The notes under the pieces were generated by a model. It was not told the DNA's origin and ran no database searches. It worked only from the letters and a program-made list of their open reading frames with translations. Positions 3 through 36,579 of a DNA stretch of 36,579 nt are shown here, piece by piece. The first letter of the stretch is position 1, and each line of letters opens with the position of its first letter. This DNA is from Methanobacteriota archaeon (GTDB lineage: Archaea; Thermoplasmatota; Poseidoniia; Poseidoniales; Poseidoniaceae), in NCBI GenBank assembly GCA_018662825.1, contig JABJFI010000015.1, positions 1-36,579 of the forward strand. The letters run 5' to 3'. The translations under genes and the position numbers were made by a program.

Positions 3-839
3 GGTGGACGTTTTGAAAGAAATGACCGTCGTCAAGATAACCGCAATGGCGGAGATTGGGATTGTCCAAAATGTCAAAATTCAAACTTTGCTTTCCGAAC
101 TGAATGTAACCGATGTGGCGAAGCACGTGGTGCTGGTGGTGACCGAGGCCCTCGAAGAGATGACCGAAGAGGTGGAGACCGCGGATACCAAAGCCGGGAC
201 CGCCAAGGTGGGCGTTTTGAAAGAAATGACCGTCGTCAAGATAACCGTAATGGCGGAGATTGGGATTGTCCAAAATGTCGAAATTCAAACTTTGCTTTCC
301 GAACTGAATGTAATCAATGTGGACTCCCTCGAGGTCGTGGAAACGATAGACGTGGTGGAAACGACCGACGTGGTGGAAACGACCGACGTGGTGGAGAAGT
401 TTACAACGATAACGACTGGGATTGTCCTCAATGTAGCAACTCAAATTTTGCCTTCCGACAAGAATGCAACCGATGTGGAGCTCCTCGCTCCGGTGGCGGA
501 GGCGGCGGACGTGGCCCTCGAAGAGAAAGTGGTGGAAGACCTCCTCGTCGTGATGACCGCTCTCGTGCTCCAAGAACTGAAGATGGTGGAAGACCTCCTC
601 GTCGTGATGACCGCTCTCGTGCTCCAAGAACTGAAGATGGTGGAAGACCTCCTCGTCGTGATGGTCGAGACCGCAGAGATGAAAGAGGATATCAGAATCA
701 AGGATCTTATGGTCAAGACAGACCACCAGAACGTAAATCAAGAGAACCTCGAACCTTTAGAAAATCACGTGGAAACGGCCCTGGACATGCACATAACCGC
801 CCACCAAAACCTATATTCAAACCTGACCGAGAGGATTAG
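3..839 (+). CDS. Partial (5' truncated) RGG-rich protein with three RanBP2-type zinc fingers
   Basis: Frame 3 is open from the window edge to TAG at 837-839. It encodes GDWDCPKCQNSNFAFRTECNRCGEARG, GDWDCPKCRNSNFAFRTECNQCGLPRG and NDWDCPQCSNSNFAFRQECNRCGAPRS. Each fits W-x-C-x2-C-x3-N-x6-C-x2-C (RanBP2 ZnF). Linkers are rich in RGG/RRD. The listed ORF 4..846 is a shadow frame. Confidence 0.88.
   Translation, partial: GGRFERNDRRQDNRNGGDWDCPKCQNSNFAFRTECNRCGEARGAGGDRGPRRDDRRGGDRGYQSRDRQGGRFERNDRRQDNRNGGDWDCPKCRNSNFAFRTECNQCGLPRGRGNDRRGGNDRRGGNDRRGGEVYNDNDWDCPQCSNSNFAFRQECNRCGAPRSGGGGGGRGPRRESGGRPPRRDDRSRAPRTEDGGRPPRRDDRSRAPRTEDGGRPPRRDGRDRRDERGYQNQGSYGQDRPPERKSREPRTFRKSRGNGPGHAHNRPPKPIFKPDRED
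531..662 (+). repeat. 54-nt perfect tandem repeat inside the RGG-ZnF gene
   Basis: GGTGGAAGACCTCCTCGTCGTGATGACCGCTCTCGTGCTCCAAGAACTGAAGAT at 531-584 and 585-638, plus a partial third copy from 639. Confidence 0.93.
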
Positions 840-850
840 AGGGTGAAAAC

Positions 851-1885
851 ATGGGTGCTGAACATCACTATCTTAACTCTGTAGAAGCCTACGACGAAGG
901 TGATTTAGAAACCGCCTATGAACAAGCATACAAGGCAGTTCAAATCGACCCTGAACATATTGATGCATGGCAGTTATGCGCTGAAACCTCTCTTCCCCAA
1001 AAAGGTGAAAAACCATCACTGATACAAGCTGCAAAATCATTGGCAGCAGTTAGGAAAATCATTGCTATTGACCCAAATCGGACTGCTATGTGGATGCTTG
1101 GTGGACGTCTGTTAAGCGATGAATTAGGATTGCTCAGTGAAGGATTGCAATGGTGGCAAGACCTGCGCCACCACTTGCCTGATGAAGTAACTCCATTGGT
1201 TGAACAAGCATCCCTACTAGCCGACATGGGTCATTATCTTGAAGCAAAATACCGCTTGGATACGATTATCGAAGAGAATTTAGATGGTGGACCGAGTCAA
1301 ATGGCAAAAATTCATCAATTACGAAGTCAAGTTAGTGCTGCAGCAAATCTTCAATCCTCTGAACATTTCAAACCATGGGAAAAACACCACAACGGATGGG
1401 GGGCCATTGAACTCAAAATGGGGAAGGGACCAGTATCTGAAAGTTTTCTGTTCCTCATCACCACAGTCCCTGTGTTGATGGTCGTCGTTTATTTCTCAAA
1501 CCAAATCGCTGGACAAGGCTGGGGTGCATTTTGTTTAACAAGCATAGTTATTTTTGCTACCGTATTATTTGGAATGCGAACTGCAAAGCGTATGTTCCAC
1601 AACATCAATCGACCTGCATTCAATTTATTGCGAGCTATGAATTTCGAGGCAAATACTGGTTATTCAATCATTCATTCAGAAATTCGTACATCTCCACTAT
1701 ACATGTTCATCATGCAAAGAAAACCAAAAGCATGGCAAGAACGAATGCTTAAGATTATTGAATCGGATACGCCACTTCCTATGAACTGGAAACCAAGTTT
1801 CCCTGACTTTGATTCGCACTTGGATGAAATTGGCTACATCGAAGAAGGCGACGAAGAGAGTTTTGAGCCCTTCGAAGAAGAGTGA
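851..1885 (+). CDS. TPR-containing membrane protein
   Basis: N-terminal TPR-like helices (YLNSVEAYDEGDLETAYEQAYKAVQIDPEHIDAW), two hydrophobic segments near aa 200-245, acidic C-terminus. Confidence 0.7.
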   Translation: MGAEHHYLNSVEAYDEGDLETAYEQAYKAVQIDPEHIDAWQLCAETSLPQKGEKPSLIQAAKSLAAVRKIIAIDPNRTAMWMLGGRLLSDELGLLSEGLQWWQDLRHHLPDEVTPLVEQASLLADMGHYLEAKYRLDTIIEENLDGGPSQMAKIHQLRSQVSAAANLQSSEHFKPWEKHHNGWGAIELKMGKGPVSESFLFLITTVPVLMVVVYFSNQIAGQGWGAFCLTSIVIFATVLFGMRTAKRMFHNINRPAFNLLRAMNFEANTGYSIIHSEIRTSPLYMFIMQRKPKAWQERMLKIIESDTPLPMNWKPSFPDFDSHLDEIGYIEEGDEESFEPFEEE

Positions 1886-24508: not shown

Positions 24509-26110
24509 TCAGTTGCGGTTTTTACCGCCACCGCGATTGTAGCCGCCTTTCTTGCCGCTATATTTGCCACTTGATTGTGAATTTTGGCCACCATGGTAGC
24601 CTTTGCTTGATTTCTTAGTTGGTTTGTAATTCTGGCCTCGAGCTTCACCACGGTATCCACCGCTGTTTCCACCATCTGAATTACTTCGGCCACCGCCGCC
24701 ACTTCGGCCACCGCCGCCACTTCGGCCTCCGCCGCCACCACGGTATCCACCGCCGCCACGGCCTCCGCCGCCACCTCGGCCTCCGCCGCCACCACGGTAT
24801 CCGCCGCCACGGCCTCCACCGCCACCGCGGTATCCGCCGCCACGGCCTCCGCCGCCACCTCGGCCTCCACCGCCGCCACGGTATCCACCGCCGCCGCCGT
24901 TTCGTTGGCTATAGTGACCATTTCGGCCACCAGAATCATTGCGATTGGAGCGTGGACGACGCTCTGCTGCGATATATTCGACTTCAAATTCAGGCAATAC
25001 TGAGAATTCAGGAGGTTCAAAATCTACACGAATTCCAACTTCTCGCTGAATCTTTCCAAATTGTTTTTTCTGAGGTTTTTGAACCAATGAGATGACGATA
25101 CCTGTGGCTCCACCACGTGCAGTTCGCCCACTTCGGTGCTTGTATGCCTTACCGTTTTCTGGAGGGTCATAATGAATAACACAATTGACACCTTCGACAT
25201 CGATACCTCGTGCAGCGACATCGGTTGCGATGAGCGCCATACATTCTCCATGTTGGAAACGTGACATTGCAGCGTCTCTTTGGCGTTGAGATAATCCTCC
25301 GTGGAGGGTTTCAATCGCCATTCCATCATACTGCATTTCATCTCCAACCCGATCGACTCCATTTCGAGTTCGGCAAAAGATGATTGTTCGACCACATTTT
25401 CGAATGATTTCAGATGAAATTGCTGATTTTTTGGAGTTCGGCATTAGCCAAAAATAATGTGTCATGCTTTCCATTGTTACTTCTTTTGGCCCCACTTCAA
25501 TGGTCACAGGGTTGGTCTGATAATCTCTCACCAAGTCAGCAACTTCATCATCTAAAGTTGCGCTGAATAAGATTGTTTGACGGTCAGATTTACACTTGTC
25601 AAGAATTTTGCAAACTGGCTCCATGAAACCCATGTCAGCCATTCTATCTGCTTCATCCAGAACAACGACACCAACATCTTGCAGGGAAACCGCCCCACGG
25701 TCAATCATGTCAATCAAACGACCAGGGCAAGCGACAAGAATGTCAACACCTTGGTCAAGGGCTCGAAATTGCTTATTGTATGAACTTCCACCATACATTG
25801 CTAAGGCATACAATTGAAGTTCGTAGGCAAGTGGGTCAAGAACTTTGTAAATTTGCTCTGCCAACTCTCGAGTTGGAGTAAGAATGAGTGAGGTTGGACG
25901 GCGTGGTTCGGCTTCCTCAGTTCGTGAAAGCAACGGTAGACCGAATGCAAGTGTTTTTCCAGAACCTGTTGGCGCTCTACAACAAACGTCTCGTCCAAGC
26001 ATACCATCTGGAATGGATTCTCGTTGAACTTCAAATGGTTCAAGAATCCCTTGCTTTTTTAGGACTTCAATCAAAATAGGCTCAACGCCAAGATCTTCGA
26101 ACGACACCAT
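24509..26110 (-). CDS. DEAD-box RNA helicase with C-terminal RGG/GYRGG tail
   Basis: APTGSGKTLAFGLPLL, PTRELAEQ, VLDEADRM, SATLDDE, HRSGRTARGGATG, followed by ~90 aa of (RGGGGG/YRGGGGGR) repeats. Confidence 0.96.
   Translation of the reverse strand: MVSFEDLGVEPILIEVLKKQGILEPFEVQRESIPDGMLGRDVCCRAPTGSGKTLAFGLPLLSRTEEAEPRRPTSLILTPTRELAEQIYKVLDPLAYELQLYALAMYGGSSYNKQFRALDQGVDILVACPGRLIDMIDRGAVSLQDVGVVVLDEADRMADMGFMEPVCKILDKCKSDRQTILFSATLDDEVADLVRDYQTNPVTIEVGPKEVTMESMTHYFWLMPNSKKSAISSEIIRKCGRTIIFCRTRNGVDRVGDEMQYDGMAIETLHGGLSQRQRDAAMSRFQHGECMALIATDVAARGIDVEGVNCVIHYDPPENGKAYKHRSGRTARGGATGIVISLVQKPQKKQFGKIQREVGIRVDFEPPEFSVLPEFEVEYIAAERRPRSNRNDSGGRNGHYSQRNGGGGGYRGGGGGRGGGGGRGGGYRGGGGGRGGGYRGGGGGRGGGGGRGGGGYRGGGGGRSGGGGRSGGGGRSNSDGGNSGGYRGEARGQNYKPTKKSSKGYHGGQNSQSSGKYSGKKGGYNRGGGKNRN
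24660..24905. repeat. GCC/CCGCC-rich low-complexity tract encoding the RGG tail
   Basis: Repeated CCGCCGCCAC[G/C]G and CCACGGTATCC blocks, in frame with the helicase. Confidence 0.9.
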
Positions 26111-35893: not shown

Positions 35894-36579
35894 TCAACGA
35901 ACTGCATTTTGCGTTCCACAAATTGGACAAAATCTCCAATAAGGGTCAAGTCCAATACCACATCCGCGGCACAATACTCCTGAACGTATCGTAGGTTGAA
36001 CATGTTGAATCGGTTGTCGGGGTTGATTCCAACCTTGTTGTTGAGCCGGTTGTTGATTCCAACCTTGTTGTTGATTAGGTTGTTGATTCCAGCCTTGTTG
36101 CTGAGCAGGTTGTTGAGCAGGTTGTTGAGCAGGTTGTTGAGCAGGTTGTTGAGCAGGTTGTTGAGCAGGTTGCTGAGCAGGTTGTTGAACCGGCTCTGGC
36201 TGAGAAAGTGGTTTGCGAACTGGAGCAACTGGACGAGGGAGAGATTGTGTTTTCTCAGCAGCTGGTGATGAAATGAATTCTGAAAGTGAAACGACACCAT
36301 CTCCATCAGTATCGGCTTGTTGATGCAAAATTTCAGCCTCTTCAAGTGAGGTGCCAGTAGCCACCGATAATTCTTCAACTGAAAGTTGTTGACTTCCATC
36401 TGTATCTGCGGCAAGGAAATGTTCAGCCGCACTGACAAATTCTGGCTCAGGTTCAGGTTCTGGTTCAGGTTCAGGTTCAGGTTCTGGTTCTGGTTCTGGT
36501 TCAGGTTCTGGTTCAGGTTCTGGTTCAGGTTCTGGTTCTGGTTTTGGTTCAGGTTCAGGTTCAGGTTCTGGCTCTGGCT
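35894..36579 (-). CDS. Partial PE-repeat / tandem EF-hand / Q-rich / C-terminal zinc-ribbon protein
   Basis: The frame of ORF 35894..36364 stays open to the window edge: ...PEPEPEPEFVSAAEHFLAADTDGSQQLSVEELSVATGTSLEEAEILHQQADTDGDGVVSLSEF...(QQPA)n...CRGCGIGLDPYWRFCPICGTQ. The listed start is an internal GTG. Confidence 0.85.
   Translation of the reverse strand, partial: PEPEPEPEPEPKPEPEPEPEPEPEPEPEPEPEPEPEPEPEPEPEPEFVSAAEHFLAADTDGSQQLSVEELSVATGTSLEEAEILHQQADTDGDGVVSLSEFISSPAAEKTQSLPRPVAPVRKPLSQPEPVQQPAQQPAQQPAQQPAQQPAQQPAQQPAQQQGWNQQPNQQQGWNQQPAQQQGWNQPRQPIQHVQPTIRSGVLCRGCGIGLDPYWRFCPICGTQNAVR
36095..36190. repeat. 12-nt tandem repeat GTTGTTGAGCAG encoding (PAQQ)n
   Basis: At least six near-perfect consecutive units, in frame with the - strand CDS. 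Confidence 0.88.
36440..36579. repeat. Hexamer (GGTTCW/GGCTCW) tandem repeat encoding Pro-Glu repeats
   Basis: Uninterrupted GGTTCA/GGTTCT units running to the window end. Confidence 0.9.

Follow-up and report, generated by a model that had tools for sequence, protein, structure and literature searches.

The gene at the contig edge and its continuation

The window analysed here is a stretch of 36,579 nucleotides from a Poseidoniaceae genome (1.96 Mb in 123 contigs), and its position 1 coincides with the end of contig C73, so that the gene with which it opens is truncated at the 5' end. Frame 3 is free of stop codons from the contig edge until a TAG at positions 837-839, and its product carries three zinc fingers (WDCPKCQNSNFAFRTECNRC, WDCPKCRNSNFAFRTECNQC and WDCPQCSNSNFAFRQECNRC) separated by low-complexity linkers (Table 1). 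We rejected the ORF at 4..846 because differences from nine relatives number 188/129/663 at codon positions 1/2/3 of frame 3, which marks frame 3 as the selected frame; the preliminary description of this DNA had also called 4..846 the wrong frame. That description had raised the possibility that frame 3 closes just upstream. The frame is open up to the contig edge and, with the upstream sequence recovered, a start was found at the end of contig C99.

Table 1. Positions in the window of the gene, its features and its downstream neighbour
Feature	Position	Strand	Remarks
Exact 141-bp overlap with the end of contig C99	1..141	+	Assembly branch at the finger repeat
3' part of the Gar1-RanBP2-finger gene	3..839	+	278 codons plus stop
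RanBP2-type zinc finger, first in window	45..119	+	PF00641 E=4.2e-9
R/G/D-rich low-complexity linker	120..248	+	
RanBP2-type zinc finger, second in window	249..323	+	PF00641 E=6.6e-9
R/G/D-rich low-complexity linker	324..413	+	18-bp tandem units (337-395)
RanBP2-type zinc finger, third in window	414..491	+	PF00641 E=2.0e-9
R/G/P/D-rich C-terminal tail	492..836	+	Perfect 54-bp tandem units (530-663)
C-terminal GHAHNRPPKP motif	783-812	+	Common to relatives
Conserved downstream neighbour, TPR-like	851..1885	+	344 aa; context only

C99 ends in exactly the same 141 bases with which the window begins. The end of C99 holds the 5' 105 codons of the gene, with the Gar1 core (68,838..69,291; loci L002, L036, L070), and also the genome's only other RanBP2 finger above the cut-off in a Pfam search of the genome. 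When C99 and the window are joined, the two parts form one ORF of 383 aa. The join is supported because the same genes flank the fused gene in relatives and because the fusion is found as an intact single ORF in numerous assemblies, one of them the closed chromosome CM001443.1. Among 80 named relatives' loci, the fused gene is flanked by the 672-aa gene that precedes it on C99 (L036 11763-13781) in 79 and by the TPR-like gene that follows it in the window in 55, although a locus that stops short has no chance of showing the downstream neighbour. Together, the intact ORFs and the conserved flanks rule out an assembly artefact as the source of the fusion. The upstream neighbour is a predicted exported or membrane protein; together with the TPR-like protein it brackets Gar1 across the whole order, and a functional link is not obvious.

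De Bruijn assembly with k=141 leaves just such an exact 141-base overlap where a repeat makes the graph branch, and a finger repeat may therefore have been collapsed. Three is thus the minimum number of fingers for the joined protein; in close relatives with an intact gene (NTD identity above 90%), 3-4 are present.

Elsewhere in the window, a DEAD-box helicase (PF00270, PF00271) at 24509-26110 (-) has a long Gly/Arg-rich C-terminal tail and is the window's second R/G-rich RNA-related protein. A further ORF at 35894-36577 (-), open at the contig edge, contains a (PE)n repeat, EF-hand-like DxDGDG motifs, QQPA repeats and a C-terminal zinc ribbon. No long tail was found on fibrillarin, whose 242-aa frame leaves no room for one.

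The N-terminal head, the zinc fingers and the linkers

The H/ACA RNP is an RNA-guided enzyme complex that introduces pseudouridine into ribosomal RNA, and GAR1 is one of its subunits. The N-terminal head of the joined protein is an 80-aa domain that matches the Pfam Gar1 family (PF04410) marginally (E=0.013-0.06, below the curated cut-off). The heads of 11 of 12 order members also match PF04410 below the cut-off, with no other family appearing, and the head's only marginal match in NCBIfam, again below the curated cut-off, is Gar1. Because these scores lie below the curated cut-offs, the assignment to Gar1 rests on profile-profile and fold comparison, which were used because the head profile had found no match among PDB sequences with hmmsearch. 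In hhalign, the order's head aligned over 73 columns with canonical Thermoplasmatota Gar1, a set gathered from the rest of the phylum outside the order (probability 95.9, E=5e-9), and this canonical set matched PDB Gar1 at E=5e-17. The AlphaFold model of the head has a pLDDT of 89, and its 16 best PDB folds in Foldseek are all Gar1/Naf1, at E-values of 3e-3 or weaker. The two best have TM-scores of 0.74 (query) and 0.80-0.82 (target), the top one being that of the archaeal Cbf5-Nop10-Gar1 complex (2ey4, TM 0.74/0.80).

The Naf1 core has the same fold as that of Gar1 and 2v3m is among the structural matches, so the head might instead belong to a Naf1-like assembly factor. This identity is very unlikely, however, given that archaeal Gar1 structures (2ey4, 2hvy) are the closest folds and that a search for a second, canonical Gar1 in this genome and its relatives gave no candidate. 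The H/ACA partners Cbf5, Nop10 and L7Ae are all encoded in the same genome. On the profile-profile match, the predicted fold, the lack of any other Gar1 candidate and the presence of these partners, we file the head as Gar1, the H/ACA ribonucleoprotein subunit, with high confidence. The Poseidoniales protein shows the Gar1 features that were tested: with archaeal Gar1 as exemplified by Pyrococcus furiosus (PDB 2ey4/2hvy; PF04410), it has in common the 80-aa beta-barrel core, its position as sole candidate and its co-occurrence with the three partners. The analysis thereby identifies a Poseidoniales Gar1 that is otherwise unannotated, PF04410 scoring above the cut-off in 0 of the 60 nearest relatives.

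Three RanBP2 fingers had been proposed for the window from its letters alone, and all three indeed match PF00641 above the Pfam cut-off (whole-protein E=3.8e-25). The motif W-x-C-x2-C-x10-C-x2-C is present together with an above-cut-off profile score, and it appeared in 0 of 20,000 residue shuffles of the ORF. Against the PDB, the finger profile matched FUS best (E=1.9e-11), as the proposal of FET-type fingers in an archaeal multi-finger protein had anticipated, followed by ZRANB2, RBM10, TAF15 and RBM5; the Ran-binding fingers of Nup153 were far weaker matches than these RNA-binding ones. In the numbering of PMC6384913, 106 of 124 distinct fingers and 3 of 3 window fingers retain the whole set of D4, N14, N16, an aromatic at 17 and R20, and position 19 is usually F, R or W. 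Several of these five positions are implicated in RNA contact by PMC6384913 and PMC7021683: D4 and R19/R20 are reported to be important and a W at 19, which EWS and FUS also have, to preserve GG specificity (PMC6384913), and FUS N435, F438 and R441, cited in RNA contact (PMC7021683), correspond in our own alignment to positions 14, 17 and 20. By their contact residues the fingers belong to the RNA-binding RanBP2 subclass and are predicted RNA binders. Variant fingers with N or S at position 19 and K at 20 occur in g6, g10 and g21; these may differ and are perhaps not RNA-binding.

The RanBP2 fold also has protein-binding members, and Nup153 is among the weaker matches, so the ligand of the fingers could be a protein (a GTPase or ubiquitin-like modifier) instead of RNA, as it is for Nup153 and NZF fingers. 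The near invariance of the RNA-contact positions and the far higher scores of RNA-binding fingers make this improbable.

The tail of the joined protein is 24% R, 17% G and 12% D, and it is of mixed charge (78 K+R vs 51 D+E). The earlier term 'RGG linkers' was apt in that the linkers are R/G/D-rich but slightly generous, since only 5 RGG triplets occur in 301 tail residues. A GHAHNRxPxP motif is kept across many Poseidoniaceae Gar1 tails (g1, g11, g12 and g14, with a variant in g17; window 783-812 and loci L006, L013, L024, L111, L116 and L121), and the tail linkers vary where this C-terminal motif is kept.

A RanBP2 finger between R/G-rich segments is a feature of FET (FUS/EWS/TAF15) proteins that the joined protein does possess. 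This arrangement, along with FUS as the best match of the finger profile, would suit a stand-alone archaeal protein of FUS/EWS/TAF15 type, one that binds ssRNA generally and forms condensates without any connection to H/ACA RNPs. However, the gene begins with the Gar1-fold domain, neither half of the joined protein matches an RRM or other extra domain in Pfam, and the head is commoner in the order than the fingers. Such a stand-alone protein therefore seems highly improbable. Membership of the FET family is ruled out, and the initial naming of the locus as a 'FUS/EWS/TAF15-like protein' does not stand: the first 80 residues form the Gar1 domain in place of a SYGQ-rich one, and there is no RRM. 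The resemblance to FUS is limited to the finger and the low-complexity linkers.

Both FET proteins and the Poseidoniales protein have a RanBP2-type finger with the same RNA-contact residues set in R/G-rich linkers, but here up to four tandem fingers are attached to a Gar1 core without RRM or SYGQ domain, and the finger spacing is C-x2-C, whereas in FET proteins it is C-x4-C. ZRANB2 likewise has several GGU-type fingers per chain, the second of them with the C-x2-C spacing, but is without a Gar1 core. By analogy, the Poseidoniales protein may work like a fusion of a Gar1 core with an ssRNA-binding arm of the FUS/ZRANB2 type.

Distribution of head, tail and fingers in Poseidoniales

A search with the head profile found the Gar1 head in 216 of 242 sampled genomes of the order, Candidatus Poseidoniales (Marine Group II). 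Among the high-quality genomes it is present in 33 of 35. It occurs in all 22 genera, nearly always in one copy. Two Gar1-finger genes occur in genome G070 (contigs C37 and C38), which may reflect a strain mixture or a duplication. One locus, L201, is titled Rhodobacteraceae bacterium; it carries the Poseidoniales Gar1 locus with its usual neighbours and is probably a mis-binned contig.

Every genus with a readable tail has an arginine-rich, mostly R/G-rich C-terminal extension. The proteins measure about 150-530 aa, with up to 36 RG in the tail and usually 1-4 fingers, and tail length varies widely across the order. Clear fingers occur in 17 genera from both families, so the Gar1 head is more widespread than the fingers. 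The tail is without fingers in g4, g8 and g17, its finger is degenerate in g2, and it is truncated in g22. Given the three fingerless genera and the degenerate finger of g2, the order can do without fingers. Across Poseidoniales, almost every RanBP2 match above the cut-off falls within the Gar1 gene or at a contig end consistent with it. Weak RanBP2-like matches were also seen in ORFs of 930-985 aa on contigs other than that of Gar1 (G001:C10:8749-8811 and G016:C16:14882-14944).

Canonical Gar1s in the rest of the phylum, in contrast, are about 80-110 aa long and have neither R/G-rich tail nor fingers. Those read in the sister family of the same class are 82-89 aa long without such a tail, and no R/G-rich tail was found on the canonical Gar1s examined elsewhere in the phylum. 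A possible C-terminal extension at L204 was rejected, the long frame there being an upstream open frame and not an R/G tail; of the long open frames around canonical Gar1s, L204 is the one read, and L203 and L205-L207 fall outside the comparison. The comparison of Gar1 tails covers the order's own phylum, with Asgard Gar1 left out. From this distribution, the simplest history would be a gain of tail and fingers at or close to the order's base, followed by loss of the fingers in some lineages.

The proposed function of the tail

Archaeal Gar1 binds Cbf5 alone and governs the state of the thumb loop and the release of product, and RGG domains, called eukaryote-specific, separate eukaryotic from archaeal Gar1 (PMC8096250). 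Removal of the RGG domains from yeast Gar1 alters turnover, which suggests contact with substrate RNA (PMC8096250). For R/G-rich tails, Poseidoniales are an exception to this separation of eukaryotic from archaeal Gar1. Their Gar1 resembles eukaryotic GAR1 in combining the Gar1 core with glycine/arginine-rich low-complexity sequence, but in eukaryotic GAR1 RGG domains are found at the N- and the C-terminus (PMC8096250), whereas the Poseidoniales tail is C-terminal only, is richer in D/N and contains RanBP2 fingers.

The reading we favour, with moderate confidence, is that the protein is a Gar1 core whose tail serves as a GG-preferring ssRNA tether holding pre-rRNA near the pseudouridylation enzyme; this grade takes in the function of the tail, the Gar1 identity by itself being far more secure. 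As in other archaea, the core would dock on Cbf5 and govern the thumb loop and product release, and the order-specific C-terminal extension would act as a flexible RNA-binding arm. Its fingers would hold single-stranded GG(U/G) sites while the arginine-rich linkers held RNA loosely, such that pre-rRNA would be caught beside the guide RNA and kept or annealed there. Capture of this kind could raise target engagement by an otherwise minimal enzyme.

The main rival to the tether is condensate formation, in which the Gar1 core would work normally and the chief role of the tail would be to concentrate H/ACA RNPs and pre-rRNA in a nucleolus-like condensate, not to act on single substrates. The long low-complexity tails and repeated fingers would be in keeping with such a role, and RGG domains have been cited in phase separation (PMC8096250). 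Nevertheless, the mixed charge of the tail and its few RGG triplets, the wide variation in tail length across the order and the lack of an RG-rich tail on the genome's own Cbf5 and Nop10 all speak against it, and we consider it unlikely. Returning to the tether, it is conceivable, though rather doubtful, that the order independently gave its H/ACA enzyme a eukaryote-style R/G-rich Gar1 tail together with tandem sequence-specific ssRNA-binding fingers. The two would form a second, protein-based layer of substrate recognition that may shift or broaden the uridines modified.

A partial literature search found neither an archaeal Gar1 with zinc fingers nor an archaeal RanBP2/RGG protein, and an earlier description is possible. 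Archaeal Gar1 has so far been treated as a minimal version without the RGG domains of eukaryotic GAR1. In Poseidoniales, which are abundant marine archaea, an R/G-rich Gar1 tail is found throughout the order, mostly with FUS-like zinc fingers. The order thus provides a natural comparison by which to ask what GAR1 tails do, in a simple, reconstitutable system and with a ready-made series of tails that runs from R/G only to one to four fingers.
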